Below are positions 1 through 63,313 of a stretch of 64,000 nt of DNA, piece by piece (the first letter of the stretch is position 1; the number at the start of each line of letters is the position of its first letter). Below the pieces are notes generated by a model. The model ran no database searches, had not been told where the DNA came from, and worked only from the letters and a program-made list of their open reading frames with translations. A program made the translations under genes and the position numbers. The stretch is from Bradyrhizobium sp. WBOS07 (GTDB lineage Bacteria > Pseudomonadota > Alphaproteobacteria > Rhizobiales > Xanthobacteraceae). The stretch is taken from NCBI RefSeq assembly GCF_024585165.1, contig NZ_CP029008.1, positions 1,860,001-1,924,000 on the forward strand, written 5' to 3'.

Positions 1-1
1 C

Positions 2-751
2 GCGACGTTGAGCGACACGCGGCTCGAGCCGGACCTCGACGATCTGCTCTGGTCGACCGTCAACCTGTTCCACCGAGCCGTCGACCGCATCGGTCGCCAA
101 CTCGACGACAACGAACAGGCGCAACGGAAGAGTCAGCGCGAGCAGGACGGTTCCGAAGTTCGATCCGTCGAACTCGAACGCATCACGGCGGAAGGCACCA
201 CGTTGATCGAGCGACGCAACTGCCTGGAGCTCTTCCGTGACCAAGCCATCGAACGCTTCGAGACTCACACCGGCACATTATGGCGCCCCCGATCGGGATC
301 GCTGGTGAACCACCGCACCCTGACCGCGGCGATGATCGACTCCCGCGACTTCATCGCAGCCAAGCGCCGCGCCGAGACCGAGATCCTGCTGCCCTCAGGG
401 CCAAAGATCGCGCTCACCGGAGGGCTCGACTTCAACGACCACCACCTCATCTGGGATCGTCTCGACAAGGTTCATGCCAAGCATCCCGACATGGTCCTGC
501 TGCATGGCGGCTCCCCGAGGGGGGCCGAACTGATCGCCTCGAAATGGGCGAGCAACCGCAAAGTGGCCCAGATCGCCTTCAAGCCCGACTGGACGAGGCA
601 CGCCAAGGCAGCACCGTTCAAGCGCAACGATGCCATGCTCGAACTCCTGCCGATCGGCGTCATGCACTTCCCGGGCACGGGCATCCAGGACAACCTCGCC
701 GACAAGGCGAAACGGCTCGGCATCCCGGTCTGGATGTTCGGCGGCGCATGA
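2..751 (+). CDS. DUF2493 (SLOG/YspA-like) protein, 5' end cut by the window
   Basis: The reading frame is open to the left edge, so the true start may lie outside; the first usable in-window start is TTG at 8. The N-terminal half (about residues 1-130) is charged and helical. The C-terminal 110 residues look like DUF2493, a Rossmann-like SLOG family thought to bind nucleotide or nucleic-acid ligands: 'ALTGGLDF' near residue 140, then 'LLHGGSPRGAE', 'KPDWTRHAKAA', and a C-terminal 'GIPVWMFGG'. Proteins of this family are common in the backbone of rhizobial ICEs and plasmids. No biochemical role is established, and nothing in the sequence shows the ligand. Confidence 0.8.
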   Translation, partial: ATLSDTRLEPDLDDLLWSTVNLFHRAVDRIGRQLDDNEQAQRKSQREQDGSEVRSVELERITAEGTTLIERRNCLELFRDQAIERFETHTGTLWRPRSGSLVNHRTLTAAMIDSRDFIAAKRRAETEILLPSGPKIALTGGLDFNDHHLIWDRLDKVHAKHPDMVLLHGGSPRGAELIASKWASNRKVAQIAFKPDWTRHAKAAPFKRNDAMLELLPIGVMHFPGTGIQDNLADKAKRLGIPVWMFGGA

Positions 752-891
752 GCGCCGTCTGCTCAACTGAAGTCTTTGAGGCGAAATTGCTCCCGCCGCA
801 ACTCCGCCTCGTTTCAGTCTCATATCCAGAGTTGCGCCGTGGTGGTGGTGGAAGGCGCGACTGGTAGATCTATGCACATGGAGCCACCACC

Positions 892-1341
892 ATGCTCGCT
901 ATTGGGCTTGTTCTCAACACACTCGGCATCGGTCTGTTCTGCTGGGCGATCATTGCGCTTGCCGTGTATGCCCTGCCGTTTTTTGTCGCACTCATTATCG
1001 GGATGATGACGTTTCACAGCGACGCCGGCCTCATTGGCGCCATGCTTATCGCGACGGCCGGCGGTGCGCTGACGCTGGTCCTCGGCCAGGTCGCCTTTGC
1101 TGTTACTCGGTCCTCGGCCTTGCGCATCGCGATCGCAACAGCATTCGCTGTTCCCGCCGCCGTCGCCGGCTATCATGTGGTGTTCGCCGTGTCCAATATC
1201 GGGGTGCCCTCGCTGGCTTGGCGTGAAGTCTTCGCTTCCTTGGGCGCGGTTTGCGTTGGCGGCACGGCGATGACGCGCTTGGTGGTTTTGGCGAAGACCC
1301 GCCCGTTCGAGCCCGATGTGGTGGTGGAGAAACCGTCCTAG
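892..1341 (+). CDS. Small integral membrane protein, unknown function
   Basis: This 149-residue protein is mostly hydrophobic, with about four membrane segments (around residues 5-25, 27-45, 50-75 and 83-105) and a short soluble tail ending 'RPFEPDVVVEKPS'. I recognise no catalytic or binding motif. It starts with ATG shortly after a 'GGAGCC' stretch and stands alone between the DUF2493 gene and the DUF736 gene. Its position suggests an ICE backbone accessory membrane protein, but no function can be assigned from the sequence. Confidence 0.6.
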   Translation: MLAIGLVLNTLGIGLFCWAIIALAVYALPFFVALIIGMMTFHSDAGLIGAMLIATAGGALTLVLGQVAFAVTRSSALRIAIATAFAVPAAVAGYHVVFAVSNIGVPSLAWREVFASLGAVCVGGTAMTRLVVLAKTRPFEPDVVVEKPS

Positions 1342-1918
1342 CCAATTCTTACGGCCGCATGGCCCCAGGGGCGATCGCTTACCGCTGCCATGTCGAATAG
1401 CTTCGTTTCGCGTAGATCGGCGCGGTGAACGGGATGATCGAACTTGAGCGCGGAGATCTCGTCCTGCTCGGAATTCATCGATCAAGCTGCCGACATTCGG
1501 TCTGGCCCACGCAGCCGCGGCAGAACGATCTTATCTCGATCCGTTCTTGGGAGACGATACCGCCTTTTGCAGGAGATTGTTTCTCTTTCCCCGCTGAATC
1601 GTTCACGCCTCTTGTTCATCAAAACCGAGATAGCCACGCTTCTCCAGATATCGTGGTTCAGCACGCGGACGCACGTGGCCTCGTTGATGGCTTGATCTGG
1701 CCGAAGACCGGCTTCGCCTCGATCGTCTGAGCCGCAACGCCGTTGATGCGACTTTCTTCCCCTGGGCTTCGCCCATTCCTCGCGAGGCAAGAAAGTCGCC
1801 ACAACGACGTCCTCCGCTGCGCTCCGGCCCGAGCGGGTGCGTCGCCGATCGTCCTCGGCCCTAGATCGCCATCGAGGCCGCGGTGGTCGCGGGCTCGAAA
1901 CACAACAGGAGAAGTGAC
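1342..1918. other. Gap without a convincing gene, leader of the DUF736 gene
   Basis: About 580 bases have no frame that I recognise. Short open frames exist on both strands (for example + 1444-1695), but they overlap one another, lack family resemblance and have no clear ribosome binding sites. The right third carries the inverted repeat described at 1748-1799 and probably serves as the promoter and leader of the DUF736 gene. A decayed gene cannot be excluded. Confidence 0.4.
1748..1799. repeat. Inverted repeat with 11-bp perfect arms
   Basis: GCGACTTTCTT at 1748-1758 is the exact reverse complement of AAGAAAGTCGC at 1789-1799. The 30-base interior holds a small GGGC-ttc-GCCC hairpin (1764-1774) and the palindrome CCTCGCGAGG (1778-1787). 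It lies 120 bases before the DUF736 start. It could act as an mRNA structure, a protein-binding site or a remnant of a recombination site; the sequence does not decide between these. Confidence 0.55.
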
Positions 1919-2239
1919 ATGGCTAACATCGGTTCTTTCAAGAAGGTCGGTAACGAATTCCAGGGCGAGATCGTCACCCTGAGCCTGAAGGCCAAGGGCG
2001 TCCGCATCGTCGCCGAGACCAACCGCTCCAATGACAACGCCCCCAGCCACCGCATCTATGTGGGCCGGGCGGAGATCGGCGCAGCCTGGTCGAAGCGTTC
2101 CGAGGAAGGCCGCGACTACCTCTCGCTCAAGCTCGACGATCCTTCCTTCAACGCGCCGATCTACGCGAACCTGTTCGACGACGAAGGCGGTGAAGGCTAC
2201 ACCCTGCTCTGGTCGCGGCCGCGCAAGACCGGCGAGTAG
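1919..2239 (+). CDS. DUF736 family protein
   Basis: This 106-residue protein begins 'MANIGSFKKVGNEFQGEI' and continues through 'HRIYVGRAEIGAAW' and 'GYTLLWSRPR', the usual outline of DUF736. The ATG at 1919 is chosen because a clear AGGAGAAG ribosome binding site lies 4-12 bases upstream; longer in-frame extensions have no such site. DUF736 proteins are abundant and highly conserved in alphaproteobacterial ICEs and plasmids, and are often strongly expressed small proteins. No activity is known. Its place at the left of the transfer-control module fits that pattern. A GC-rich hairpin follows the stop codon. Confidence 0.9.
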   Translation: MANIGSFKKVGNEFQGEIVTLSLKAKGVRIVAETNRSNDNAPSHRIYVGRAEIGAAWSKRSEEGRDYLSLKLDDPSFNAPIYANLFDDEGGEGYTLLWSRPRKTGE

Positions 2240-2250
2240 GCCACTTCATC

Positions 2251-2280
2251 AAGCCCCGTCCGGTCTGCCGGGCGGGGCTT
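2251..2280 (+). terminator. Hairpin after the DUF736 gene, likely terminator
   Basis: AAGCCCCG at 2251-2258 pairs with CGGGGCTT at 2273-2280, with further pairing inside (TCCGG with CCGGG). It starts 12 bases after the DUF736 stop codon. The downstream tail (CCCATCCTTCC) is poor in T, so this is a weak match to the classic intrinsic terminator. Confidence 0.5.
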
Positions 2281-2340
2281 CCCATCCTTCCAGGCGTCAG
2301 TGAGCGCGAACCGGCCGCCGGATCGAGCGGGTCGGCTCAA

Positions 2341-2589
2341 TCACTCGGCCTGCCCCCGAGTCCTTTTCTTGGTGCTTGTGGGCGGGCGAGTGAGCAGGTC
2401 GGCGGCCTCGACACCCAGGCTGCGAGCGAGCCGATCGACAACGTCGATACCCGCCGCATAAACGCTTCGCTCGAGTGCGCTGATATAAGTGCGGTCAATT
2501 TCAGCACGATGAGCCAATTCCTCCTGTGACAAACCACGGGCCTGCCGGAGCTTCCGCAAATTGATTGCAAGTATCTCGCGTATATCCAT
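2341..2589 (-). CDS. qseC: XRE/HTH_3 regulator, QseC-like
   Basis: This 82-residue protein is almost only a Cro/C1-type helix-turn-helix: 'LRKLRQARGLSQEELAHRA' forms the first helices and 'RTYISALERSVYAAGIDVV' the recognition part, followed by a short basic tail. It is transcribed divergently from a small DUF2285 gene. In the Mesorhizobium loti symbiosis island ICEMlSymR7A the same arrangement is QseC and QseM: QseC binds operators between the genes, represses qseM and controls its own expression, making a bistable switch on transfer. Size, domain and divergent layout match, and this assignment rests on them. The 146-base intergenic region contains repeats that could be the operators. Confidence 0.7.
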   Translation of the reverse strand: MDIREILAINLRKLRQARGLSQEELAHRAEIDRTYISALERSVYAAGIDVVDRLARSLGVEAADLLTRPPTSTKKRTRGQAE

Positions 2590-2612
2590 ACGCGAGAGGG
2601 CATGTCCTTGAA

Positions 2613-2635
2613 GAGTATTTCACCACGGAGTATTT
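2613..2635. repeat. Direct repeat GAGTATTT, candidate QseC operator
   Basis: GAGTATTT occurs at 2613-2620 and 2628-2635, 15 bases apart, just upstream of qseC. Its position suits regulator binding over the qseC promoter, but a role is only inferred. Confidence 0.35.
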
Positions 2636-2702
2636 TCGACAAAACGCGATCCGGACGGCTTCCGCGACAATTTTGGCGCTTCTGCTCCTTCCTGCCCGCG
2701 TG

Positions 2703-2717
2703 TTAGAAATTGTCTAA
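2703..2717. promoter_or_regulatory. Inverted repeat TTAGA-N5-TCTAA upstream of qseM, candidate operator
   Basis: TTAGA (2703-2707) and TCTAA (2713-2717) form a perfect dyad centred 26 bases before the qseM start codon. Spacing and location suit a site where a QseC dimer blocks the qseM promoter. Binding is not shown. Confidence 0.45.
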
Positions 2718-2735
2718 ACTAAGGCGTGGAGTCTT

Positions 2736-3008
2736 ATGAGGAAGCCGCCGCTCGACCCAGGCGTCGCCGACGCTGCGCCTGCAGATCAAATTCTCACTGC
2801 CTACGATGAGCAGCATGTCGTGACCTACATGCGCCTTCTGCAGGCCGAAAGCCAAGGGGCTGACTGGATGGAAGTCGCTCGAGTGGTGCTGCATATCGAT
2901 CCGGTGCGGGAGCCGGACCGTGCGCGAAGCGCATATCAGAGTCATCTCGCGCGCGCCAAATGGGTGACCGAGCAGGGACGCCTCTTGCGCGGCACCGGCT
3001 CAAAATAG
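2736..3008 (+). CDS. qseM: DUF2285 antiactivator, QseM-like
   Basis: This 90-residue protein has a single DUF2285 domain, with the core 'HVVTYMRLLQAESQGADW' and 'RARSAYQSHLARAKWVTEQG'. An ATG preceded by GGAG is used. In ICEMlSymR7A the small DUF2285 protein QseM binds both the quorum-sensing activator TraR and the excision activator FseA and inactivates them, holding the element in the chromosome in most cells. Its position here, divergent from a small XRE regulator and just upstream of the split fseA-like gene, matches that role well. The alternative is an unrelated DUF2285 regulator, but the context makes that less likely. Confidence 0.72.
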   Translation: MRKPPLDPGVADAAPADQILTAYDEQHVVTYMRLLQAESQGADWMEVARVVLHIDPVREPDRARSAYQSHLARAKWVTEQGRLLRGTGSK

Positions 3009-3076
3009 AAGAAAACCGCCGGCCGGCGACTTGCAGGCAGAACTATTTTCTTTTGCTGATCGGTGGTCATTCCGGT

Positions 3077-3090
3077 GCACCACGTGGTGC
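3077..3090. promoter_or_regulatory. Perfect 14-bp palindrome, candidate LuxR/TraR box
   Basis: GCACCACGTGGTGC is a perfect palindrome in the 165-base region between qseM and the fseA-like gene, 84 bases before the start codon. In ICEMlSymR7A the genes that form fseA are activated by TraR with acyl-homoserine lactone, so a dyad of about this length is expected here. The assignment is inference from position and symmetry. Confidence 0.45.
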
Positions 3091-3173
3091 CAAACTAGGG
3101 GCTTCCTACAACCGCCTCGTTCATACCTATTGCGGCGCAATCGTTGTTAGCAGCGTGCAATGGGGCGGAAGCA

Positions 3174-3945
3174 ATGCCTGAATTCGACTGGCGGTCGCCG
3201 GAATCCTACAAGAGCCTACAAGACGCCGAAATCACCGACATCGCCTGGGAATGTCTCCGCCGCAACGCCGGTTACCGGCGTGAGTACGAGGTGATGATTG
3301 CCAACAGCCCGAACGGCGAAGTGACTGACGAATTCAGGAGGAGGTGGGGCCTCTGCTTTCGCCCATGACCCGCGGCGGTCGTTCGATGAGCAGACGATCT
3401 TTTGGGCGCCTGAGGTTCTAGCGGCGGTCGTTCCGGTCAAGGTTGCCTCGGCCGCCGATCGCAGTTCAGCGCCTCAACCGCTGCTTGACCTTGCAGCAGG
3501 CCAGATGCGCCGCGCCGCCGACGGCTGGCACGCCGTGCTGCGCATCGGTGCAGTGGATCACCGTGTCTGGTCCAAGGATCCACCGGTGCTTGGCGCGTCA
3601 TATGCAGCCGAACTGCCATTTGACGGCGATTTCGGCGCGCGTGCGTATGCAGCCCGCCGGCTGTGGCGCGCGATGAATGGACGCGCACCAGGTCCTGCCT
3701 TTCACCAACTATCTAAACAGCGGCGCGAACGCTTGAGCGCCGCGATCCGTGCGCTTGATGCTCGCAGCGCCGGCGGAAGCTATCGCGTTATCGCCGAAGC
3801 GCTCTTCGGCAAAAAGCGAATCCCCGACCGTGCCTGGAAGACCCATGATCTGCGCAATCGAACAATCCGCTTGGTGCAAGGCGGCCTTGCGTTGATGCGC
3901 GGTGGTTACCGCAAACTTCTGCGGTCCGGGCGCAGGGACGAATAG
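3174..3945 (+). CDS. fseA: Excision activator FseA, two frames joined by +1 frameshift
   Basis: Frame 1 (3174-3368) encodes 64 residues starting 'MPEFDWRSPESYKSL' (DUF6499 type, like Msi172) and ending 'RRRWGLCFRP'. Frame 2, open from 3361 to 3945, encodes a DUF2285 domain (like Msi171) that starts without its own ribosome binding site. A +1 slip at the TTT codon 3357-3359 gives '...RRRWGLCF-AHDPRRSFDEQ', a continuous protein of 256 residues. In ICEMlSymR7A exactly this happens: tRNA-Phe slips from UUU to UUC and fuses msi172-msi171 into FseA, which activates rdfS. The rdfS-like gene lies directly downstream here. It is not a sequencing error or plain pseudogene in my reading, because the slip motif itself is kept. 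Confidence 0.8.
3355..3368 (+). other. Programmed +1 frameshift site (TTT-C)
   Basis: The zero frame reads GGC CTC TGC TTT CGC CCA TGA. Slipping one base at TTT puts tRNA-Phe on TTC (3358-3360), and reading continues GCC CAT GAC in the frame of the downstream DUF2285 domain. The in-frame stop at 3366-3368 gives the short product. The UUU to UUC slip is the mechanism established for FseA of Mesorhizobium loti. Confidence 0.75.
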
Positions 3946-4079
3946 CCCTTCCGGTTGGGGGGTATCGAAAGCGGCCCCCTCCATATTCGGCATCCCCCTC
4001 CGAGATCTTGCTTCTCCATGATGACCGCACACACGCCGGCCTAGCCAGGCGTAGTGCGATGTCCTCCTGGAGTCCTCAA

Positions 4080-4361
4080 ATGCCCGATCCGATGGCCGGT
4101 CTACCACCGCGATTCCTGCGTACACCTGAGGCCGCGCGCTATCTTGGCCTGTCCGGTCGCACGCTCGAGAAGCACCGCACGTACGGTACTGGACCGACGT
4201 ATCGGAAGATCGGCGGACGTGTTGTCTACGCCGTCGATGACCTGAAAGCGTGGGCTGACCGCGGCGCCAAGACGTCGACGTCCGATCCCGGGAAGGGGAC
4301 GGTACTGCCGGCCAAGAAGCAGCCCGCGCTGCGCCCGTATGCGGGCCAGGAACGTCGCTGA
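4080..4361 (+). CDS. rdfS: Recombination directionality factor (excisionase) RdfS-like
   Basis: This is a 93-residue MerR/AlpA-type winged-helix DNA-binding protein: 'RFLRTPEAARYLGLSGRTL' is the helix-turn-helix and 'GTGPTYRKIGGRVVYAVDDL' the wing, followed by a basic, proline-rich tail. ATG at 4080 is chosen because GGAG lies 8 bases upstream; earlier in-frame starts exist. In rhizobial ICEs RdfS bends the attachment sites with IntS to drive excision, and its gene heads the operon that continues into the relaxase genes. It lies directly after fseA, its expected activator, and just before the RepA-like gene, which agrees with that role. Confidence 0.78.
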   Translation: MPDPMAGLPPRFLRTPEAARYLGLSGRTLEKHRTYGTGPTYRKIGGRVVYAVDDLKAWADRGAKTSTSDPGKGTVLPAKKQPALRPYAGQERR

Positions 4362-4383
4362 TTGCCGCGTGAGAGTAGTGACC

Positions 4384-5265
4384 ATGCGGCGCAAACACCA
4401 TTCGGAGCGCGACCAGCTTGAGCTCTTTCGGGCGTTGCCCGGCGATCTTGCGCCGCGCGACGCGCAGGATCTGATGGCGTATCCGTTCTTCTCCCTCGCA
4501 AAGACTAAGCGGATCGTGCCGATCGACTTCCGTGCCGGTGCGATCGCAATTCGTGTCGAAGCCGTGCCGGAACACGGCATGGCGACGATCTGGGATGCAG
4601 ACGTTCTGATCTGGGCCGCGTCCCAGATTGTCGAAGCCCGTGATGCCGGCCTGAAGACGTCGCGCCTGATGGCTGCAACGCCGTATGAAATTCTGACGTT
4701 CGTCGGCCGCGGCACCGGCGCACGCGACTATGATCGGCTGAAGGCGGGTCTCGACAGACTTCAGTCAACGACCGTGCTGACGTCGATCCGTCAGCCGGCA
4801 GAGCGGCGACGGCATCGCTTCTCCTGGATCAACGAGTGGAAAGAGACGGCCGATGCAAATGGCCGCCCATTTGGGATCGAGCTGATCCTGCCGGATTGGT
4901 TCTACGCTGGCGTCATCGATGACGCGCTCGTGCTGACGATTGATCGCGCCTATTTCGAGCTGACGGGCGGACTTGAGAGGTGGCTTTATCGTCTTGTGCG
5001 CAAGCACGGCGGACGCCAGGACGGCGGCTGGAGTTTTGATCTGGTGCACCTCCATGCCAAGTCCGGCATCCTCTCGCCCCTCAAGCACTTTGCTTACGAC
5101 GTGCGCCAGATCGTCCAGCGCCAGACATTGCCCGGTTATCAGCTCGTGCTCACGCGCGACCCTGATGGCACCGAGCGACTGAACTTTGCACCCACGCCTG
5201 TTGATCCCTTAACGGCCCGCTTGCGCCGGCGCGGTCTCATTCCAAATTCGGAGGACAACCTGTGA
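4384..5265 (+). CDS. repA: RepA-like replication initiator (RPA family)
   Basis: This 293-residue protein resembles the replication initiator protein A family of alphaproteobacterial plasmids: 'DLMAYPFFSLAKTKRIVPID' near the N-terminus, 'MATIWDADVLIWAASQI', 'ATPYEILTFVGRGTGARDY' and a winged-helix C-terminal half with 'LERWLYRLVRKHGGRQ'. The ATG at 4384 avoids a 23-base overlap with rdfS that the next upstream start would give. Such genes are frequent in ICEs and suggest that the excised circle can replicate for a time. Three iteron-like repeats follow its stop codon at once. The usual partner parA is not seen downstream. Confidence 0.8.
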   Translation: MRRKHHSERDQLELFRALPGDLAPRDAQDLMAYPFFSLAKTKRIVPIDFRAGAIAIRVEAVPEHGMATIWDADVLIWAASQIVEARDAGLKTSRLMAATPYEILTFVGRGTGARDYDRLKAGLDRLQSTTVLTSIRQPAERRRHRFSWINEWKETADANGRPFGIELILPDWFYAGVIDDALVLTIDRAYFELTGGLERWLYRLVRKHGGRQDGGWSFDLVHLHAKSGILSPLKHFAYDVRQIVQRQTLPGYQLVLTRDPDGTERLNFAPTPVDPLTARLRRRGLIPNSEDNL

Positions 5266-5270
5266 ATCAG

Positions 5271-5335
5271 CTCGTGCTATCGGGGACCGCAACCCTCGTG
5301 CTATCGGGGACCCGATCCTCGTGCTATCGGGGACC
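5271..5335 (+). repeat. Three iterons CTCGTGCTATCGGGGACC, candidate origin
   Basis: The 18-base unit occurs exactly at 5271-5288, 5295-5312 and 5318-5335, with starts 24 and 23 bases apart, close to two helical turns. It begins 5 bases after the RepA-like stop codon. Evenly spaced direct repeats beside an initiator gene are the standard form of a RepA-bound origin, so this may be oriV of the excised element. No protein-coding reading is credible here. Confidence 0.65.
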
Positions 5336-5395
5336 GGAATCGAGCTTAAGAGCTTGTTTCTCCGCGCTTTCCAGCCGCTCTAACTTTACTAACCG

Positions 5396-5412
5396 GAAAT
5401 CCTTCGGATTTC
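5396..5412 (+). terminator. Hairpin GAAATCC-TTC-GGATTTC after the iterons
   Basis: A perfect 7-bp stem closes a three-base loop and is followed by TTCTAACGG. It may end transcription of repA or be part of the origin. The T tract is too short to be sure. Confidence 0.4.
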
Positions 5413-5554
5413 TTCTAACGGAGCAGGCCGAAAGCGGCGTCGATGGCGCTCGGCAACGGCAGTCCGACAGGCCAGCCTGCCTTTGCAGGCGATACACACT
5501 CTCGACCGAGCCCCAAGCTCACGGCTGCCAGCCCCAGCGTCCGGGAGCCGCCGC

Positions 5555-6019
5555 ATGAGCGATCTCACGGAAGTGGAAGTGTTGTGGCTCGAGAAGCGCA
5601 TCGAAAACCGCATTCGGTTCGGTCGCATTGTCGGGGAACGGAAGCTTGATCGCCATCGGCGTGTCCTGTCATTCGCGCCAGGCAGCATCTTTGCCTTCGT
5701 CCGGTGGACCTCCAACGACTTTGGCACGATCATTTCGCGCATCGACATCTTGCGCGCGGTCGCACTGGGACAGCGCTGCTCGACCGTTCCTTATGTGACG
5801 CCCGGCGGTGAGATTCTGCTGCGCCTGTCCGGCTGGCCGAAGGTCGAGCGCGTGCTGCAGATGATCGATGCCGTTGAGGCGCTCGGCGTCGATCCGGCTG
5901 ATGTCGCTCCCGACCATTGGCATCACGTTCACAACCGTCTGTCCGTTAATGAAAACCCGCGCCCGTATACGAAAGCGCGCCATCAGGCCTGGCTCCATCG
6001 CCAAAGGGTGATGCGATGA
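5555..6019 (+). CDS. DUF2840 family protein
   Basis: This 154-residue protein starts 'MSDLTEVEVLWLEKRIENRI' and shows the DUF2840 outline, with 'FVRWTSNDFGTIISRIDIL' in the middle and 'ENPRPYTKARHQAWLHRQ' at the end. DUF2840 genes sit between parA and traF in many alphaproteobacterial ICEs; the function is unknown. The gene overlaps the traF start by 4 bases (ATGA), showing translational coupling. A parA gene would be expected just upstream but is missing; only about 220 bases separate this gene from the iterons. Confidence 0.85.
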   Translation: MSDLTEVEVLWLEKRIENRIRFGRIVGERKLDRHRRVLSFAPGSIFAFVRWTSNDFGTIISRIDILRAVALGQRCSTVPYVTPGGEILLRLSGWPKVERVLQMIDAVEALGVDPADVAPDHWHHVHNRLSVNENPRPYTKARHQAWLHRQRVMR

Positions 6020-6528
6020 CGGGCCGCCTACCGATGCTGGCCGTGACGATTGGGGTCGCTGCTGCGCTCATCGCGACGATCGTCCTGGAGCCGATTCCGC
6101 TATACATCTGGAACGCATCCGCGAGCGTGCCGATCGGTCTCTACCGCCTCCGACCGGCGGACCAATTCCAAGTTACTGAATTGGTCGCCGTGCAGCCGCC
6201 GGAGCCGCTCGCGACCTTCCTCGATTTGAACGGCTATTTGCCCATTGGCGTGCCCATGCTGAAGCGCGTGCTCGCCCTTCCGGGGCAGAGTGTTTGCAGA
6301 ACCGGCCTCACGATTTCGGTCGACGAGGTCGCGGTGGGCGAGGCGAAGGACCGCGACGGACGCGGCCGGCCGCTGCCGAAATGGCAGGGCTGCCGCGTCG
6401 TCGGCGACGGCGATCTGTTTCTGATGAACTGGCAGTCGGACGACTCTCTTGATGGCCGGTATTTTGGATTTCTTCCGGCATCCAGCGTGATCGGCCGTGC
6501 GATGCCGGTGTGGACGTGGGAGGGGTGA
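6016..6528 (+). CDS. traF: TraF-like conjugative signal peptidase (S26)
   Basis: This 170-residue protein has one N-terminal membrane anchor (residues 7-30) and the S26 peptidase motifs: the Ser box 'SASVPIGLYRL', with Ser about residue 37, and the Lys box 'PMLKRVLALPG', with Lys about residue 86. TraF-type peptidases process and cyclise the TrbC pilin in RP4-like systems; the pilin gene here is trbC at 14574. The gene overlaps DUF2840 upstream and is followed within 2 bases by a lytic transglycosylase, so the three form one transcription unit for pilus assembly. Confidence 0.88.
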   Translation: MTGRLPMLAVTIGVAAALIATIVLEPIPLYIWNASASVPIGLYRLRPADQFQVTELVAVQPPEPLATFLDLNGYLPIGVPMLKRVLALPGQSVCRTGLTISVDEVAVGEAKDRDGRGRPLPKWQGCRVVGDGDLFLMNWQSDDSLDGRYFGFLPASSVIGRAMPVWTWEG

Positions 6529-6530
6529 TC

Positions 6531-7361
6531 GTGCGTATTCGACGTGTTCTCCTCGCCATGCCCTTGTTCGATCGATTGCGGGATCATTCCTCCGTCTCGA
6601 TCGATGTCTGCAAGGCTGGCGCGAGCCCGACCGCGTGCTTGGGTCGGTTGGGCACGCGCGTTTGTGCAGTCGTGCCCGTGATGCTTCTTCTGACCGCGTT
6701 CGACGGTGCTGCTTTGGCCCAGAGCGGATCAACCGCCCAGCCGGCGATCAGTCAGACCGCTCACTCATTTGCCGGCTTCATCAATGAAGCCGCACAACGC
6801 TTTGCGATTGCGCCGAACTGGATCCGATCAGTCCAACGCATCGAGAGTGCTGGTGACGTGCACGCCAGATCGCCAAAAGGCGCAATGGGCCTGATGCAAA
6901 TCATGCCAGCGACTTGGGCGGAACTTCGTGTGCGCTACAATCTCGGGAACGACCCCTACGACCCGCACGACAACATTCTGGCCGGTACGGCGTACTTGCG
7001 CGAACTGCTCGATCGGTATGGCTCGCCTGGCGTGTTTGCGGCGTACAATGCGGGACCATCTCGCTATGAAGAGCATCTTGCGGGCGGCTCTCTGCCAGAC
7101 GAGACGCGAGCATACGTCGCAAAGCTTGCAAATCTGCTTGCCGTCGAACTGCCGCCGAGGTGGACGTCCGGCGGACAGTCATCAGCAGCTGCGACGCTAT
7201 TCGTCACGCGATCCGATCTCATGAAGACGCGTGATCGGTTGTTGGCGCTCATGCCGTCTAGCGGTGTCACGACCGCGTTCTCGGCGCCCGATGTTTCGCC
7301 CATGGTCCCCCGGCCAATTGGCATGTTCGTCCCTCGATCGGATTCGGGAGTATCGCGATGA
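6531..7361 (+). CDS. Lytic transglycosylase of the conjugation system
   Basis: This protein of about 276 residues carries a signal sequence or anchor (around residues 40-65) and an SLT domain: 'NWIRSVQRIESAGD', in which the Glu is the expected catalytic residue, then 'GAMGLMQIMPATW' and 'FAAYNAGPSRYEEH'. It opens peptidoglycan so that the pilus and secretion channel can cross the periplasm. The GTG at 6531 lies two bases after the traF stop; ATG at 6558 is another possible start. The C-terminal 80 residues beyond the domain are not recognisable. Confidence 0.85.
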   Translation: MRIRRVLLAMPLFDRLRDHSSVSIDVCKAGASPTACLGRLGTRVCAVVPVMLLLTAFDGAALAQSGSTAQPAISQTAHSFAGFINEAAQRFAIAPNWIRSVQRIESAGDVHARSPKGAMGLMQIMPATWAELRVRYNLGNDPYDPHDNILAGTAYLRELLDRYGSPGVFAAYNAGPSRYEEHLAGGSLPDETRAYVAKLANLLAVELPPRWTSGGQSSAAATLFVTRSDLMKTRDRLLALMPSSGVTTAFSAPDVSPMVPRPIGMFVPRSDSGVSR

Positions 7362-7746
7362 CCAGGTGTGCGGGTTCGCAAGCTGATGGTGTATGGGCGA
7401 TGCCTTCGGCCCGCGCTCTACTCGTCGCTTCGCTCCTCACCGAGCCACCCTTCGGGTGTCTCGGCCCTTCGGGTAACGATCGCTATCGCAAGCGCTCGGA
7501 AGCAGTGGGGGCTTCGCGAGTTGGCGGCCAGGTCGCGGTGGCTCTTTCGGGAACCGGCGACCCGGAGACCACGACGGCAGGACGGCGAGATAAAAGGGGC
7601 TCGCCGCTCGAACCGCAAGCCATTGACATGGCTTGGGTTCCGGCGTGCCGGTCGGTCGGGGCGCGTGCCGCGCCTTGGATTTTTAAGAATGAGATCAACT
7701 ACATTTTCGGCACTCTACGCGTTTTGGCGTCCTTCGAGGCGCAGTC
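7362..7746. other. Noncoding region upstream of the relaxase, candidate oriT
   Basis: This 385-base stretch has open frames on both strands but none with a family match. It is rich in short hairpins, best seen at 7440-7464 (CGAG-c-CACCC-ttc-GGGTG-t-CTCG), followed by GGCCC-ttc-GGGT. A structured region directly before a relaxase gene is the usual place for an origin of transfer, and a comparable position is expected by analogy with related ICEs. The nick site cannot be read from the sequence. Confidence 0.45.
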
Positions 7747-9510
7747 ATGACCACGGGCGACAGCGATCTGCGTATCCGGCCCGGGCGCATCCGCAGTACC
7801 CGCGCGCCGAAGCCGAAAAGCTTCATCAATCAGGTGCTACGCGCGGCGAAGAAAACCGGACACACCTCGGGTCAGACCCCGGCCGGCAGGCGTTCCGCGG
7901 CCCATGGGCGTTCGACGTTTGGCCGCGGGCGCCTCGCCTTTAGCCGGGCGAGATTGTTCAGCCCGACGCGGCGCGTTGTGGTGAAGGCGCGCGTGGTTCG
8001 CCACAAAGGACGAGCCTTCCGCTCAGCGCCGCTGACGGCCCATCTCTCGTATCTGAAGCGCGATGGCGTGACCCGGAGTGGTGAGCGGGCCGAGATGTTT
8101 GATGCCCGCGGCGACGGCGCCGATAGCGCGGCGTTTGCCGAACGCTGCAAGGACGACCGTCACCATTTCAGGTTCATTGTCTCGCCGGAGGACGCCGGCG
8201 ATATGACCGACCTGAAGGCCTTCACCCGCGACCTCGCCAAGCAGATGGAAGCCGACTTTGGCACGCGACTGGATTGGGTGGCTGTCGATCATTGGAATAC
8301 CGACAATCCTCACGTCCATCTTCTCGTTCGGGGGGTCGACGAAGAGGGCGCTGATCTCGTGATCTCCCGCGACTACATCAGCCGGGGCCTGCGTTCACGC
8401 GCCGAGGAATTGGTCGCGATCGAACTGGGTCCAAAACCGGAGCACGAGATCCGCAATTCGCTGGAGAGGGAAGTCTCGGCGGAACGATGGACGCGGCTCG
8501 ACCGGGAGGTCCGACTGGCGGCGGAAGAGACCGGGTATATCGATCTTCGACCCAAGAATCCCGGCAGCGCGGATCCTGAGATCCGCCGCCTGATGGTTGG
8601 CCGTCTTCAGCACCTCGAGAAGATGGGCCTTGCCGCATCCGCCGCACCAGGGGAGTGGATGGTCGGACTCGAGGCCGAGCGCAGCTTGCGCGACCTCGGC
8701 ATGCGCGGCGACATCATCAAGACCATGCACCGCGCCTTTACCGAGCGCGGGGAAGCGCGCGGCGTCGCCGACTTCGTCATCGAGGGTGGACAGCCGACGT
8801 CTCAGCTTATGGGACGACTGGTCGAGCGTGGATTGCATGACGAACTGACTGGCGAGGCCTACGCCCTGATCGACGGGACCGACGGACGCGCGCACCACGT
8901 GCGCTTTCGAGGTATCGAGGCCTTCGAACATGCTCCGCCCGTTGGGGGAATCGTCGAAGTCCGACGCTTCGGTCAAGCCGGCGATCCACGGCCGACCGTG
9001 GTGCTCGCCATCCGCTCCGATCTCGATCTTGCCGAGCAGGTCACCGCAAAAGGCGCGACCTGGCTTGACCACAGGCTGGTCGAACGCGACTCCATGCCGC
9101 TTGCCATGGGCGGATTCGGCCGAGAGACGCGCCAAGCCATGGAAGCCCGTACCGAGCATCTGATCCGGGAGGGCCTAGCGCGGCGGCAGGGCCAACGCAT
9201 CATCTTGCAGCGCAACCTCCTGAACACGTTGCGCCAGCTTGAACTGGACCAGGTGGCCGCAAAAGTCTCGGCCGACACCAGCCTCCCTTACGTGAAGTCC
9301 GAATCCGGGGAGCATGTGGCGGGGACATATCGCCAGCGTCTGACGCTCGCCTCGGGACGCTTCGCCATGATCGACAATGGGCTCGGCTTCCAACTCGTGC
9401 CCTGGTCGCGCGAACTCGAAAGGAGGCTCGGCCAACACGTCACCGGCGTCGTGAAGGACGGCGGTGGAATCGAATGGGGCTTTGGTCGCAAGCGCGACCT
9501 CGGTCTCTAA
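7747..9510 (+). CDS. rlxS: Relaxase RlxS (VirD2/TraI-like, DUF3363)
   Basis: This 587-residue protein has a basic, disordered N-terminus (about 90 residues) and then a MOB relaxase fold. 'LTAHLSYLKRDGV' carries the likely nucleophilic Tyr, and 'HWNTDNPHVHLLVRG' is the metal-binding His motif. The C-terminal half matches DUF3363. It should nick oriT and pilot the single strand into the recipient. The length equals that of typical RlxS proteins, and the gene is complete. It is followed after 36 bases by traG, its coupling protein, and preceded by the candidate oriT. Confidence 0.92.
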   Translation: MTTGDSDLRIRPGRIRSTRAPKPKSFINQVLRAAKKTGHTSGQTPAGRRSAAHGRSTFGRGRLAFSRARLFSPTRRVVVKARVVRHKGRAFRSAPLTAHLSYLKRDGVTRSGERAEMFDARGDGADSAAFAERCKDDRHHFRFIVSPEDAGDMTDLKAFTRDLAKQMEADFGTRLDWVAVDHWNTDNPHVHLLVRGVDEEGADLVISRDYISRGLRSRAEELVAIELGPKPEHEIRNSLEREVSAERWTRLDREVRLAAEETGYIDLRPKNPGSADPEIRRLMVGRLQHLEKMGLAASAAPGEWMVGLEAERSLRDLGMRGDIIKTMHRAFTERGEARGVADFVIEGGQPTSQLMGRLVERGLHDELTGEAYALIDGTDGRAHHVRFRGIEAFEHAPPVGGIVEVRRFGQAGDPRPTVVLAIRSDLDLAEQVTAKGATWLDHRLVERDSMPLAMGGFGRETRQAMEARTEHLIREGLARRQGQRIILQRNLLNTLRQLELDQVAAKVSADTSLPYVKSESGEHVAGTYRQRLTLASGRFAMIDNGLGFQLVPWSRELERRLGQHVTGVVKDGGGIEWGFGRKRDLGL

Positions 9511-9546: not shown

Positions 9547-11535
9547 ATGTCCGGAACCAAAATCCTTTGGGGGCAGGTGATCGTGGTCGGCCTGATCGTT
9601 TTGCTGGCCATCTGGGGAGCAACCGAGTGGACGGCCTGGCGGCTCGCCTGGCAACCGGAGCTTGGGCGGCCCTGGTTCGAACTGTTGGGCTTCAAGGTCT
9701 ATTACCCGCCCGTCTTCTTCTGGTGGTGGTTCGTCTACGACGCCTATGCGCCACGGGTCTTTGTCGAAGGAGCCTTCATTGCGGCGTCGGGGACCTTCGT
9801 TTCGATCGCGGTGGCGATCGGCATGTCGGTTTGGCGGGCGCGCGAAGCCAAGAATGTCGCGACCTATGGGTCGGCGCGCTGGGCTGGTGCGGACGAGGTT
9901 CGAGCGGCGGGACTTCTCGGTCCGGATGGTGTGGTGCTCGGCAAGCTCGACCGCGACTACCTTCGCCACGACGGGCCGGAGCACGTGTTGTGTTTTGCAC
10001 CCACCCGATCCGGCAAGGGTGTCGGTCTTGTCGTCCCCTCGCTCCTGGCTTGGCCCGGCTCGGCCATCGTTCACGACATCAAGGGCGAGAATTGGCAACT
10101 GACCGCGGGCTTCCGCTCGCGACACGGCCGCGTCCTGTTGTTCGATCCCACCAACCCAAAGTCCTCAGCCTACAATCCGCTGCTCGAGGTCCGGCGCGGG
10201 GAATGGGAGGTTCGCGACGTCCAGAACGTGGCCGACGTCCTGGTCGACCCCGAAGGCTCCCTCGACAAGCGGAACCACTGGGAGAAGACCAGTCATTCGC
10301 TCCTGGTCGGCGCCATACTCCACGTTCTCTATGCCGAGGCGGACAAGACCTTGGCCGGCGTCGCCGCCTTCCTGTCCGATCCGAAGCAGCCGATCGAGAC
10401 CACGCTGAGGGCGATGATGACTACACCGCACCTTGGCGAGCAGGGCGCCCATCCCGTCGTCGCCTCGACCGCGCGCGAACTCCTCAACAAATCCGAAAAC
10501 GAACGCTCCGGCGTCCTATCCACCGCGATGTCGTTCCTCGGGCTCTACCGCGATCCCGTCGTGGCCCAGGTGACCTGTCGCTGCGACTGGCGGATTGCCG
10601 ATCTGATCGCAGATGGTCGCCCGACGACGCTTTACCTCGTGGTGCCGCCGTCGGATATTTCTCGGACCAAGCCGCTGATCCGTCTGGTGCTGAACCAGAT
10701 CGGCCGGCGCCTGACCGAGGATCTACACGCCCGCGACCGTCGGCATCGAGTGCTAATGATGCTCGACGAGTTCCCGGCGCTGGGGCGGCTGGATTTCTTC
10801 GAGTCTGCGCTCGCCTTCATGGCGGGGTACGGCATCAAGAGCTTCTTGATCGCGCAGTCGCTCAACCAGATCGAGAAGGCCTACGGGCCTAACAACGCCA
10901 TCCTCGACAACTGTCACGTCCGCGTCAGCTTCGCGACCAACGACGAGCGGACCGCCAAGCGGGTATCGGACGCGCTCGGGACCGCGACCGAGATGCGGGC
11001 CATGAAAAACTATGCCGGCCATAGATTGAACCCGTGGTTGGGGCACTTGATGGTCTCGCGGCAGGAGACGGCCAGACCTCTCTTGACCCCGGGCGAGGTC
11101 ATGCAGCTTCCACCGATGGACGAGATCGTCATGGTGGCGGGTACGCCGCCGATCCGGGCGAAGAAAGTTCGCTACTACGAGGATAGGCGGTTCACCGAGC
11201 GGGTTCTGCCGCCGCCAAATCCGGCGAGCGCCGGCCGATCATCGAGAACGGACGGTTGGTCAGCGCTAGGACCATTGAAGCCGACGGCGGGTCCAACTGA
11301 CAAAGCCGCGGAGGTCGAGGAAGACACGGCGAACAGCGGACTCCGTCGCGAGCCCGAACTCCCCGATCACGTCGCGATCGCCAAGGAGACGACCGAACCG
11401 ACGCCGGCAGAAGAATTTGCCGCCGTTCTTGACGATGACGAGGATGGGGTCCGCCAGTCCCGGCTCATACGCCAGCAGATGCGCGGCGTTGCGCGTCAGG
11501 TCGCCATGGACCCGAATGACGGTATGGAGCTCTGA
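9547..11535 (+). CDS. traG: Coupling protein TraG (VirD4-like)
   Basis: This 662-residue protein has two N-terminal membrane segments (about residues 10-30 and 55-95) followed by the AAA+ motor: Walker A 'APTRSGKGVGLV', Walker B 'HRVLMMLDEFPALG' and the 'FLIAQSLNQIEKAYG' motif. It is the inner-membrane ATPase that hands the relaxase-DNA complex to the Trb channel. The C-terminal 100 residues are acidic and low in complexity, which is common for the family. The gene is complete and is followed after 6 bases by a ribbon-helix-helix gene. Confidence 0.93.
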   Translation: MSGTKILWGQVIVVGLIVLLAIWGATEWTAWRLAWQPELGRPWFELLGFKVYYPPVFFWWWFVYDAYAPRVFVEGAFIAASGTFVSIAVAIGMSVWRAREAKNVATYGSARWAGADEVRAAGLLGPDGVVLGKLDRDYLRHDGPEHVLCFAPTRSGKGVGLVVPSLLAWPGSAIVHDIKGENWQLTAGFRSRHGRVLLFDPTNPKSSAYNPLLEVRRGEWEVRDVQNVADVLVDPEGSLDKRNHWEKTSHSLLVGAILHVLYAEADKTLAGVAAFLSDPKQPIETTLRAMMTTPHLGEQGAHPVVASTARELLNKSENERSGVLSTAMSFLGLYRDPVVAQVTCRCDWRIADLIADGRPTTLYLVVPPSDISRTKPLIRLVLNQIGRRLTEDLHARDRRHRVLMMLDEFPALGRLDFFESALAFMAGYGIKSFLIAQSLNQIEKAYGPNNAILDNCHVRVSFATNDERTAKRVSDALGTATEMRAMKNYAGHRLNPWLGHLMVSRQETARPLLTPGEVMQLPPMDEIVMVAGTPPIRAKKVRYYEDRRFTERVLPPPNPASAGRSSRTDGWSALGPLKPTAGPTDKAAEVEEDTANSGLRREPELPDHVAIAKETTEPTPAEEFAAVLDDDEDGVRQSRLIRQQMRGVARQVAMDPNDGMEL

Positions 11536-13597: not shown

Positions 13598-14572
13598 GTG
13601 GGGACGACGGTGCCAAGCCATTCCATTCAATCGGAAGCGAATTCGCGCGGCGCGCGCATGCTTCGTAGTGCGCTTGGCACAGCGATTGCCGGCTACCTCG
13701 AAGATGAAGCGATCATCGAGGTGATGCTCAATCCGGATGGGCGGTTGTGGATCGACAGGCTGTCGAGTGGCTTGATCGACACAGGCAAAACTCTCTCCGC
13801 AGCGGATGGCGAGCGCATTGTTCGCCTGGTAGCGCACCACGTAGGTGCGGAGGTGCATGCCGGGGCGCCACGGGTTTCGGCAGAACTGCCTGGAACTGGT
13901 GAGCGCTTCGAAGGCCTTTTGCCTCCGGTCGTTGCCGCCCCGGCCTTTGCTATCCGCAAGCCAGCGGTCGCGGTGTTTACCCTCGACGATTACGTCGCCA
14001 AGGAAATCATGACCTCGGAGCAGGCCGAGATCCTGAAGAGCGCGGTCGCCGCACGGAAGAACATCCTCGTCGCCGGGGGAACGTCGACCGGCAAGACGAC
14101 TCTGACAAATGCGCTCCTGGCCGAAGTGGCAAAGACTGCCGATCGGGTCGTGCTGATCGAAGATACGCGCGAACTGCAGTGCACAGCGCCCAACCTTGTC
14201 GCTTTGCGTACCAACGATGGCGTGGCGACGCTATCGGACCTCGTTCGCTCCTCGCTGCGACTGCGTCCTGACCGTATTCCGGTCGGCGAGGTCCGCGGTG
14301 CCGAAGCCCTCGATCTGCTCAAGGCCTGGGGTACCGGGCATCCCGGTGGCATCGGGACCATTCATGCTGGTACCGCGCTCGGTGCCCTGCGGCGGCTTGA
14401 GCAACTCATTCAGGAAGCCGTCATCACGGTTCCGCGTGCCCTGATCGCCGAGACCATCAACGTTATCGCCGTGCTGGCGGGGCGTGGCGCTGATCGTCGC
14501 CTCGTTGAGCTCGCGCTCGTCCGGGGGCTTGGAGCTGCCGGCGACTACAGCCTTTCAACAGCAGGAGACTGA
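13598..14572 (+). CDS. trbB: Conjugal transfer ATPase TrbB
   Basis: This 324-residue VirB11-type secretion ATPase has an N-terminal domain with '[20 protein letters not shown]', Walker A '[19 protein letters not shown]', '[11 protein letters not shown]' as the Asp box and '[14 protein letters not shown]' as the His box. It is a hexameric cytoplasmic ATPase that powers pilus assembly. The start is taken at GTG 13598, giving normal family length. It is the first gene of the trb operon; trbC starts one base after its stop codon. Confidence 0.95.
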
Positions 14573-24187: not shown

Positions 24188-24817
24188 CTAGGCGACGCGC
24201 AATACAGGCGCCCAGAGCACTGGCCCGGAAAGTCCGCCTGCCCCACGGAGTTTCGCGAGCGCCGCACTGGAGATATCCAGATATCCAGCGACGGCGAGAG
24301 TGTTCCCAATCTTAGAGGGAGCGCCGATTCGACGTAGCGGCCACCCAGCGCGCCGCAGGATCCTTTCCATTCGGGCGTCGGTAACGGTAACAATATCGCT
24401 CAGATGCCGCGAAAGCCCAAATTCCACCATGCCAGCAAACAACTCGTAGGTGGCACAAGCTATTCCGTGTTCTCCTTTTGGTGTGTCGAGTCTAGCGTCG
24501 ATCGCAAAGCGGCTGCTTTCCCATATCTGCGGACTCATGGGCATCGGCTGACCATTCAGAAGCGCGGGAAATGTGTCGCGGAGCATCGTCGGTCCCTTGG
24601 TTGGAAGCAGGCGGACGCAGCCTTGTACCCGGCCGTCGTCCGAGAGTTGGGCGAGGTATGCCGGATGCAACGAGTCGAACTTGTCAACTTCCATGTCGCC
24701 GCTAATTTGAACGTCCCAGTCCATCCGGACCTTGAAGACGCGATGTCGTAGTTGGTGTATTGCAAAGAGCGTATGGGAGAATTCGCCGTACCAAGGCTCC
24801 GTGATGAGCTGAATCAT
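24188..24817 (-). CDS. traI: Acyl-homoserine-lactone synthase (LuxI/TraI family)
   Basis: This 209-residue protein keeps the LuxI core: 'LRHRVFKVRMDW', 'DKFDSLHPAYLAQLSDD', 'GCVRLLPTKGP' and 'WESSRFAID'. It makes an N-acyl-homoserine lactone from S-adenosylmethionine and an acyl carrier protein substrate. The start at 24817 is preferred over 24838 because GGAGGA lies 4-9 bases upstream of it. It lies 81 bases downstream of the luxR-like gene on the same strand. In the related ICEMlSymR7A this signal activates transfer through TraR. The acyl chain cannot be told from the sequence. Confidence 0.88.
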   Translation of the reverse strand: MIQLITEPWYGEFSHTLFAIHQLRHRVFKVRMDWDVQISGDMEVDKFDSLHPAYLAQLSDDGRVQGCVRLLPTKGPTMLRDTFPALLNGQPMPMSPQIWESSRFAIDARLDTPKGEHGIACATYELFAGMVEFGLSRHLSDIVTVTDARMERILRRAGWPLRRIGAPSKIGNTLAVAGYLDISSAALAKLRGAGGLSGPVLWAPVLRVA

Positions 24818-24898
24818 GACATCCTCCAAGGTTGCCATGATTCTTTGAGGCGAAGTTACGCTAAGAAGCATCACCCCTAGTTGTGGGAGGAGTTCGCC

Positions 24899-25627
24899 TT
24901 AGTTTTGCTGTTCTCGTTTGGCAGCGGCCACGCGTAGTGCCGCTTGAACAACGGTTCGCACTCCCAATTTTGCTTTCGCGTTGTTCAGGTAAGAGATAGC
25001 AGTGTGATGCGATATTCCCAGAATGCGTCCGATGTCCCAAGCGCTCTTGCCGCGGGCGGCCCACTCCAGACATTCGAACTCGCGGGCGGACAAAGCTGCT
25101 CCATCAACACGAAGATCGCTCGCGAGTTTGCGGCGAACGTGTGAGTGGAAGAACATCGCCATCAACTGAAGCATTCGAGGGTTCGACGTGACGAAGCGTT
25201 CGAATTGAGCTTCCCGTTGGTTGCCGGCAAAGGTGACGGCGGCAACGGGGCCGTGTCCGTCATGGATAGGAACGGTGAATCCTAGCCGAATGCCATATTG
25301 GGAGGCTTCGTCCAGCAACCGCTTCTGTGCCGGCGAAAGATATCGTTCGGTCGATCCGATTCCCCAGCGAAACGGCTCGGTGTCCCGTAGCGCCTGCATG
25401 ATAACCGGATCGATCCGTTCGTAGTGGCTCCTTAGGTAGTGTGAAGTCCACTCCTTTGGGTATGTCGACATAAGACGGGGTGTCCCATCGAGCTTTTGCG
25501 GTAGCGCGAGGTACGCAAAGCAAGACAGGTCGAGAGCCGCGGCTGTGACGGCCATGGCTCCCGAAAGCTCTGCTTGATCTTCAGCGCTCGAAAGATGATC
25601 AATGAAGTCTTGAAATATGCGATGCAT
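24899..25627 (-). CDS. traR: LuxR family quorum-sensing regulator, TraR-like
   Basis: This 242-residue protein has an N-terminal autoinducer-binding domain ('YLRSHYERIDPVIMQAL', 'FRWGIGSTERYLSPAQ' and 'GFTVPIHDGHGPVAAVTFAG') and a C-terminal LuxR helix-turn-helix ('LSAREFECLEWAARGKSAWD' to 'KAKLGV'). The domains are complete. It is followed on the same strand by the luxI-like gene, so the pair forms a signalling unit. Its likely targets are the ICE excision genes, above all the fseA-like gene at 3174, where a 14-bp palindrome lies in the promoter region. Confidence 0.88.
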   Translation of the reverse strand: MHRIFQDFIDHLSSAEDQAELSGAMAVTAAALDLSCFAYLALPQKLDGTPRLMSTYPKEWTSHYLRSHYERIDPVIMQALRDTEPFRWGIGSTERYLSPAQKRLLDEASQYGIRLGFTVPIHDGHGPVAAVTFAGNQREAQFERFVTSNPRMLQLMAMFFHSHVRRKLASDLRVDGAALSAREFECLEWAARGKSAWDIGRILGISHHTAISYLNNAKAKLGVRTVVQAALRVAAAKREQQN

Positions 25628-63017: not shown

Positions 63018-63228
63018 CGGCTCAATTCCTTCATTCGGCAAAGCGAAAGTCGCCGTGAACGTTTGTTCTCCCGATACCAGCAAAAATACCAGCAAATCGG
63101 GCGGCTGGGATCGGAGGAGAACAAACGGTGACGAACTAGAACGTACGCGGAAGTGCCTATTTTTCAAGGCTTTCCGAGCACGGTGCGGACGGTTGCGGAC
63201 GTTTCGGAACGGGCTTGAACAGCCTGGT

Positions 63229-63313
63229 TGGTGCCCCTGGCCGGAATCGAACCAGCACTCCTTGCGGAACTCGATTTTGAGTCGAGCGCGTCTACCAGTT
63301 CCGCCACAGGGGC
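63229..63313 (-). tRNA. tRNA-Leu(CAA), integration site of the ICE
   Basis: On the minus strand the gene begins GCCCCTG and ends CAGGGGC-ACCA, a 7-bp acceptor stem with encoded CCA. The anticodon loop CTCAAAA lies between CTCGA and TCGAG, giving anticodon CAA. The long variable arm is that of tRNA-Leu, and the T arm GGTTCGATTCC is present. Its 3' end faces the integrase, so the ICE is inserted there. A copy of the 3' end (the other att site) is expected beyond the left edge of the window. Confidence 0.93.

Follow-up and report, generated by a model that had tools for sequence, protein, structure and literature searches.

The locus at 3174–3945 of the window, that is, of the whole stretch of 64,000 nt from Bradyrhizobium sp. 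WBOS07 that was analysed, raises the question of whether two overlapping open reading frames stand for a broken gene, two genes or a single gene read in two frames. An earlier note, made from the letters of the DNA alone, had proposed that a one-base slip at TTTC joins them into an FseA-type activator of 256 residues, and the two frames were found exactly where it had placed them. The first (3174–3368, + strand) encodes 64 residues, of which residues 5–63 matched DUF6499 (PF20109, E 7.2e−22), and the second (3361–3945, + strand) encodes 194 residues, of which residues 85–188 matched the DUF2285 or RovC DNA-binding domain (PF10074, E 2.7e−31). These were the single matches of either family at E ≤0.001 in the 6.73-Mb genome. 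Moreover, the N-terminal DUF6499 part bears AWECLRRN, the counterpart of the AWEFLRRN-like motif of FseA-type proteins, and the DUF2285 domain of the second part has a computed pI of 11.9 and a net charge of +17. The letters at the joint are CTC TGC TTT C GCC CAT GAC. After TTT (3357–3359), the 0 frame runs through two further codons, the first being CGC in the A site, and ends at TGA (3366–3368). On the other hand, a +1 step over the TTT-C site (3357–3360), in which the P-site pairing passes from UUU to UUC and one base is skipped, gives a stop-free DUF6499-DUF2285 protein, and the product of 256 residues was thereby reproduced.

Conservation of the two-frame arrangement

Relatives were gathered in two sets. 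The best 80 of 87 relatives were taken, corresponding to 78 distinct loci, and further loci came from 397 genomes sampled evenly across the order, 86 of which had the first domain. A total of 125 sites were found in this genome sample, one being the window itself, and 110 of the other 124 were used; the 14 unused sites comprised one with an E-value of 2.5e−13 and others that were among the weakest (4e−9 to 8.5e−5). The two sets overlap (L021/L090), only exact duplicates having been taken out. By tblastn, with the window included, the second part lay at +1 in 102 of the 105 loci with both parts placed, two being at 0 and one at +2, and the first part was absent in four loci (L082, L091, L095 and L099). 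Furthermore, a strict seed pattern caught 65 loci, and the profiles built from these then found 184 pairs of N- and C-terminal parts (window included), 174 at +1 and 10 at 0; L193, at a contig end, had no second part in the profile search. Relatives ordinarily carrying both halves in one frame, which according to the earlier note would mean a simple mutation here, were thus searched for in two ways, and both returned the split as the usual state. It should be kept in mind that the loci share kinship, so that these counts do not represent independent events.

The codon pair TGG-GGN (or TGG-AGN) precedes the slip codon in 164 of the 184 pairs, of which 163 are at +1 and one, L065, was scored 0; the 20 pairs without TGG-GGN (9 at offset 0 and 11 at +1) were kept out of the motif counts. 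Among the 163 motif-bearing +1 pairs, the slip codon and the next base read TTTC (158), TTTT (3), TTTA (1) or TGTC (1), and the +1 codon was a Phe codon, TTC or TTT, in 161. In these 161 pairs, with TTTC or TTTT, tRNA-Phe would be able to re-pair one base further on. Considering the distinct loci, the slip codon was TTT in 153 of 154, against 357 of 1,152 Phe codons (31%) elsewhere in these genes. The alignment of the slip motif in relatives that had been suggested as a check accordingly gave TTT-C and the +1 offset as the rule.

Both parts are under selection, each in its own frame. The loci with TGC before TTT were termed window-type (54 loci, TGC being present in 54 of 54 by this definition), and variability was analysed in the 49 unbroken ones, five with stops having been dropped. 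In these 49 loci, variability peaked at phase 2 of the codon as far as the slip and at phase 0 beyond it. No synonymous change was seen in TGC-TTT in any of them, a fixity equalled by none of 90 other conserved codons (0/90), and such fixity is not mere recency, since the third positions of the second part differed by 42% on average between pairs.

The exceptions to the +1 rule were of several kinds. In L042 both parts lie in one frame through the loss of one base upstream of the slip, and the conserved Trp is lost too; L097 is truncated and the first half of L098 is broken, both being scored as single-frame, and L109 is a broken copy. The offset of 0 given by the profiles for L065 was an alignment effect, as tblastn placed it at +1. 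Six remote single-frame proteins (L208, L209, L213, L214, L215 and L219) had no slip motif, in accordance with the approximately 39% of published homologues that, taken as the remainder of the split ones, need no slip. At the place of the slip codon, TGT was found in L179 and in L223 (a plasmid of Azospirillum lipoferum), both domains still being readable in each, and L077 had TTTA; either the rule has exceptions, or these copies are dead, and the two TGT copies may be dead or may use another kind of slip. Among five plasmid loci, three had TTT-C at +1 (pMLb of M. japonicum, Bradyrhizobium guangxiense and Ketogulonicigenium). For L222, on a plasmid of Bradyrhizobium sp. 172, no DUF6499 was found upstream, and a TTTC remnant, CTGCTTTCACCCATGACCC, stands before the DUF2285 part. 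The motif was missing near the profile end in 11 +1 pairs, two of which came from L084, where the Trp codon is replaced by a stop. DUF6499-like and DUF2285-like parts at +1 with no TGG-GGN-TTT near the joint were observed in L203, L204, L205, L207, L211, L212, L216, L217 and L218.

The same evidence bears on three other explanations of the locus. That the halves are two separate proteins, the second frame starting by itself through stop coupling or at an ATG at 3505 and an upstream AGGAGG serving that start, would agree with the position of this AGGAGG ahead of the ATGA overlap at 3365–3368 and with annotations in which the halves are separate genes, the second starting from an internal codon (NZ_CP022220.1, for example). 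However, the ATG at 3365 belongs to the third frame, possible start codons (ATG, GTG or TTG) are absent from the second frame until 3505, and the stretch from the slip to 3505 already shows the third-position excess in the +1 frame; moreover, two separate proteins would not need the slip codon to be TTT rather than TTC in all loci except one, and we consider them very unlikely. Even less likely is transcriptional slippage, which would likewise join the frames with the DNA unchanged, by giving a mixed mRNA in which the frame is restored. In bacteria this usually requires a long run of a single base, but the run here is no longer than TTT, and the Phe codon is preserved as an in-frame TTT. The least credible explanation is a damaged gene or a sequencing error, with halves once in one frame and a broken copy in the window, since, although a split frame resembles a simple mutation at first sight and L042 shows that one-base changes do happen in the fseA family, the split is the rule among relatives (102/105), selection still acts on both frames, identical copies are present in several other assemblies, and the conserved split together with the phase switch of codon variability led us to reject both a pseudogene and an assembly error. 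We thus return to one gene, fseA, contained in two frames at 3174–3945, gated by a +1 slip and driving an excision circuit, a reading that we regard as very probable.

The slip signal in the lineage of the window

The codons around the slip site differed between the window-type loci and the other 100 distinct loci. In the latter, the pre-slip Gly codon was GGG in 81 (background, 133 of 1,276 Gly codons) and CGA stood immediately before TTT in 71 (background, 218 of 2,248 Arg codons). The usual signal of the family is thus UGGGGG-NNN-CGA-UUU-C, in which 6 nt separate the end of UGGGGG from the slip codon; this hexamer has been described as resembling a ribosome-binding site and possibly causing stalling (PMC10359603). 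The window departs from this signal: in window-type loci the pre-slip Gly codon was GGC or GGT in 53 of 54. The window carries AGGAGGAGG at 3336–3344 (+ strand), complementary to the anti-SD, in which 15 nt lie between AGGAGG (3336–3341) and the slip codon. When a stretch of 24 nt was scored, AGGAGG was present in 47 of the 54 window-type loci, at a distance of 15 nt in 46 and of 12 nt in one, and in none of the 100 others. Furthermore, the 0-frame TGA as the third codon after the slip codon is kept with the same spacing in 50 of the 54. In a pairing profile, the strongest mean pairing with the 16S 3′ end was given by 8-mers starting 17–23 nt before the slip in window-type loci, compared to 11–14 nt in the others; the host genome has GGATCACCTCCTTT twice, presumably as its 16S ends.

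The Arg pair encoded by AGGAGG is itself conserved, and AGG was used in 89 of its 98 cells, while only 6 of 909 cells had it at 19 other conserved Arg codons. Random synonymous choice produced AGGAGG in 164 of 9,800 draws, against 41 of 49 loci observed; pairwise nucleotide identity among these 49 unbroken window-type loci goes down to 52%. In a tree of the second parts, from which 5 short ones out of 154 were dropped, 50 window-type rows out of 149 fell inside a clade of 52 members (SH-aLRT 94, quick tree). With two changes in all on the tree, the window-type signal has in essence one origin and, consequently, the change of signal has no independent repeats. RNA structure was also considered as a stimulator and found no support, no stable structure being predicted downstream of the slip (3361–3440, z −0.13) or around it (3300–3420, z +1.88).

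Based on this, we tentatively propose, as a possibility rated a little short of even, that the lineage of the window rebuilt its slip signal, giving up UGGGGG and CGA for AGGAGG 15 nt upstream, TGC and a nearby stop. That AGGAGG acts on the slippage is what we infer here from the sequence. No published account of the AGGAGG variant was found among titles and abstracts on FseA, DUF2285 frameshifting and Bradyrhizobium ICEs, and neither Bradyrhizobium nor Shine is mentioned in the available text of PMC10359603. The split FseA class has already been described and the fseA of the window is a further member of it; the change of slip signal is the part that was not found in print.

The probable excision circuit and the island

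The genes next to fseA are those of a known control module. Upstream lies a homologue of QseM (2736–3008, + strand), a lone DUF2285-type antiactivator whose residues 10–81 matched the QseM structure (PDB 7uqt, E 1.4e−17); it scored 19.4 bits against PF10074, below the cut-off, contains no DUF6499, and has a net charge of 0 and a pI of 6.8, an overall negative surface being the feature expected of QseM. Divergent from it stands an XRE-type HTH regulator (2341–2589, − strand; PF01381, E 3.5e−14), which is called QseC-like from its position and fold class and not from a direct match. Downstream of fseA there is a homologue of RdfS, the recombination directionality factor with a winged HTH (4080–4361, + strand; PF12728, E 8.5e−9; PDB 8dgl, E 2.8e−11). 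Across 75 loci in which the first part was placed, the window being counted and several loci ending early at contig ends, fseA was directly preceded by a same-strand qseM in 70, a divergent match to the qseC-like gene was seen in 66 and rdfS was present in 73. The best-match identity of the QseC-like gene ranged from 32 to 100%, far more variable than that of the adjoining qseM or rdfS, as if repressor types had been exchanged, although some weaker hits may belong to different HTH genes.

Two repeats flank fseA. The perfect palindrome GCACCACGTGGTGC (3077–3090), centred 90 bp before the fseA start, is a candidate fseA operator and occurs exactly once in the genome. When the 175 nt upstream of fseA were compared across 52 distinct window-type loci, the centre of the best palindrome fell exactly at −90 in 35 and within −86 to −94 in at least 46. 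In three of nine loci tried from other lineages (L104, L106 and L110), GGCATGACGTTATGCC was observed at −87 or −88. With luxR and luxI on the element, the palindrome may be a tra-box; a tra-box shared by fseA and the luxR-luxI genes, however, was dropped as an explanation, as a search for a palindrome like that at 3077–3090 before luxR-luxI found none. The second repeat is the inverted repeat ATCGAA-N16-TTCGGC (3964–3991), upstream of rdfS. Published FseA boxes consist of two inverted hexamers 16 bp apart, the two central bases being the most conserved (PMC10359603). In 41 of 69 distinct fseA-rdfS promoters, a hexamer pair with this 16-bp spacing and 5 or 6 inverted matches out of 6 stood at one place, the commonest form being GCCGAA-N16-TTCGGC and the pair being perfect in 32 of 69; the pair of the window itself is weaker, with 4 of 6 matches. 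With inverted hexamers at the 15–16 bp spacing of such boxes, the repeat in the rdfS promoter may be taken for an FseA box. A sigma-70 promoter scan of 2560–4120 found none.

The working of this circuit can be drawn by analogy with ICEMlSymR7A, from which the slippage, its rarity and all the later regulatory steps are carried over. Most ribosomes reaching UUU would read two codons on and stop at UGA, releasing the DUF6499 fragment, and in a minority of them tRNA-Phe would re-pair from UUU to UUC, completing the DUF6499-DUF2285 activator. The activator would then bind the inverted repeat at 3964–3991 and switch on rdfS together with the transfer genes that follow, and RdfS would turn the integrase at the right end towards excision. 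Meanwhile, the QseM homologue would bind the DUF6499 part and hold the activator back.

Behind rdfS follow, all on the + strand, replication initiator protein A (4339–5265; PF10134, E 1.8e−86), a DUF2840 protein (5483–6019; PF11000, E 5.1e−72), a TraF-like S26 peptidase (6016–6528; PF10502, E 1.9e−29), an RlxS-like relaxase (7747–9510; PF11843, E 3.5e−87, and PF03432, E 1.9e−6) and the coupling protein TraG (9547–11535; PF02534, E 4.9e−101). The trb genes were read from the list of open reading frames, the ATPase at 13598–14572 being the one given a domain search. On the − strand, a LuxI-type autoinducer synthase (24188–24874; PF00765, E 5.8e−54) and a LuxR/TraR-type regulator (24899–25627; PF03472, E 5.7e−30; best PDB match TraR 2q0o, E 2.7e−28) were found, and at the right end a tyrosine integrase (61647–63167, − strand; PF13356, PF00589 and PF22022). 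The integrase is followed by the 16-bp attachment repeat TGGTGCCCCTGGCCGG (63229–63244), which is the 3′ end of a tRNA-Leu(CAA) gene identified by ARAGORN (63229–63313, − strand). The left end was not found in the 35 kb to the left of the window but lay beyond, where the flanking sequence of a relative led to it: an identical 16-mer is present at G000:C1:1808590–1808605 (L139:2590–2605) and adjoins the stretch that flanks the tRNA in relative G401. The repeat at both ends would delimit an island of 114,655 bp whose right end holds the integrase; this island may be one element or two stacked ones. Seven relatives of the same genus have a long match here, and five of these align only from 63225–63229 on. 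In the relatives G398 and G400 (L117 and L122), the match goes beyond the tRNA into the integrase side (window 63170–63229), so that these two genomes seem to carry a related insertion at this tRNA-Leu.

As far as can be read from sequence, the island holds the set of an ICE of the ICEMlSymR7A type, namely integrase, RDF, relaxase, T4SS and attachment repeats. Positions 1–8942 of the window showed 100% identity in four records (L033, L034, L036 and L037), which include Bradyrhizobium japonicum in8p8, Afipia sp. OHSU_II-C1 and a Bradyrhizobiaceae MAG, and were nearly identical in others; over this compared stretch, the identity across records fits a recent transfer. Catabolic and defence cargo had been predicted for the element, and the domain search identified a Rieske oxygenase, the oxidases and ABC transporters being as read from the list of open reading frames, together with a CBASS-like pair (a cyclase and a patatin-like phospholipase effector) and a CapP-like M78 peptidase near the integrase end (57418–59630 and 60320–61201).

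Relation to known systems and meaning

The earlier reading of an FseA-type activator was supported by the same two domains, the TTT-C slip, the QseM and RdfS homologues, the box-like repeat and the tRNA-Leu island. The first paper on the slip, published in PNAS in 2015, reportedly described a slip of tRNA-Phe from UUU to UUC. According to PMC10359603, FseA of ICEMlSymR7A arises from msi172-msi171 through a +1 frameshift of low frequency, and approximately 61% of 4,709 FseA homologues are split at the conserved site and often misannotated. The element of Mesorhizobium japonicum R7A and that of the window share the two-frame DUF6499-DUF2285 activator, the +1 slip, QseM and a box before rdfS (PMC10359603 and PMC11963761). 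They differ in the promoter of fseA: in ICEMlSymR7A, fseA follows traI2 under a tra-box through which TraR acts, before traI2-msi172-msi171 (PMC5882170), whereas fseA in the window comes directly behind qseM, with the conserved palindrome at −90. The pMLb locus of M. japonicum MAFF 303099, used as an R7A-related comparison, reads TGG GGT TTG CAG TTT C. As regards the genes behind rdfS, in non-symbiotic Mesorhizobium ICEs and Tn4371-like elements, too, rdfS and traF are separated by genes for an initiator and a DUF2840 protein, but the initiator named there is of the Rep_3 type (PMC8627217) and that of the window is a PF10134 RPA; host and cargo differ as well, the window belonging to a 114.7-kb island at tRNA-Leu(CAA).

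Two more distant systems are also comparable. The Yersinia protein RovC (PDB 6xz5) belongs to the same DNA-binding family, PF10074 being named after it, the sequence match having an E-value of 0.45, and to our knowledge it involves no frameshift. In prfB, encoding release factor 2, a +1 slip is accompanied by an SD-like stretch some 3 nt ahead of the slip, and the A site is occupied by a stop. The window resembles prfB in its +1 slip with an upstream SD-like stretch; it departs from prfB in its AGGAGG, which ends 15 nt ahead of the slip, and in having CGC in the A site, with the stop coming as the third codon after UUU.

Judging by the signs in its sequence, this element with catabolic and defence cargo carries the same frameshift gate as was described for a symbiosis island, and its control region is identical in Bradyrhizobium and Afipia records. 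If the proposed rebuilding of the slip signal is true, one regulatory slip would have two interchangeable ribosomal stimulators, and a long-spaced SD would be an unusual stimulator of a +1 slip. The lineage-specific change of the signal makes directly testable the mechanistic question of what upstream in the mRNA drives a ribosome decoding UUU one base forward.
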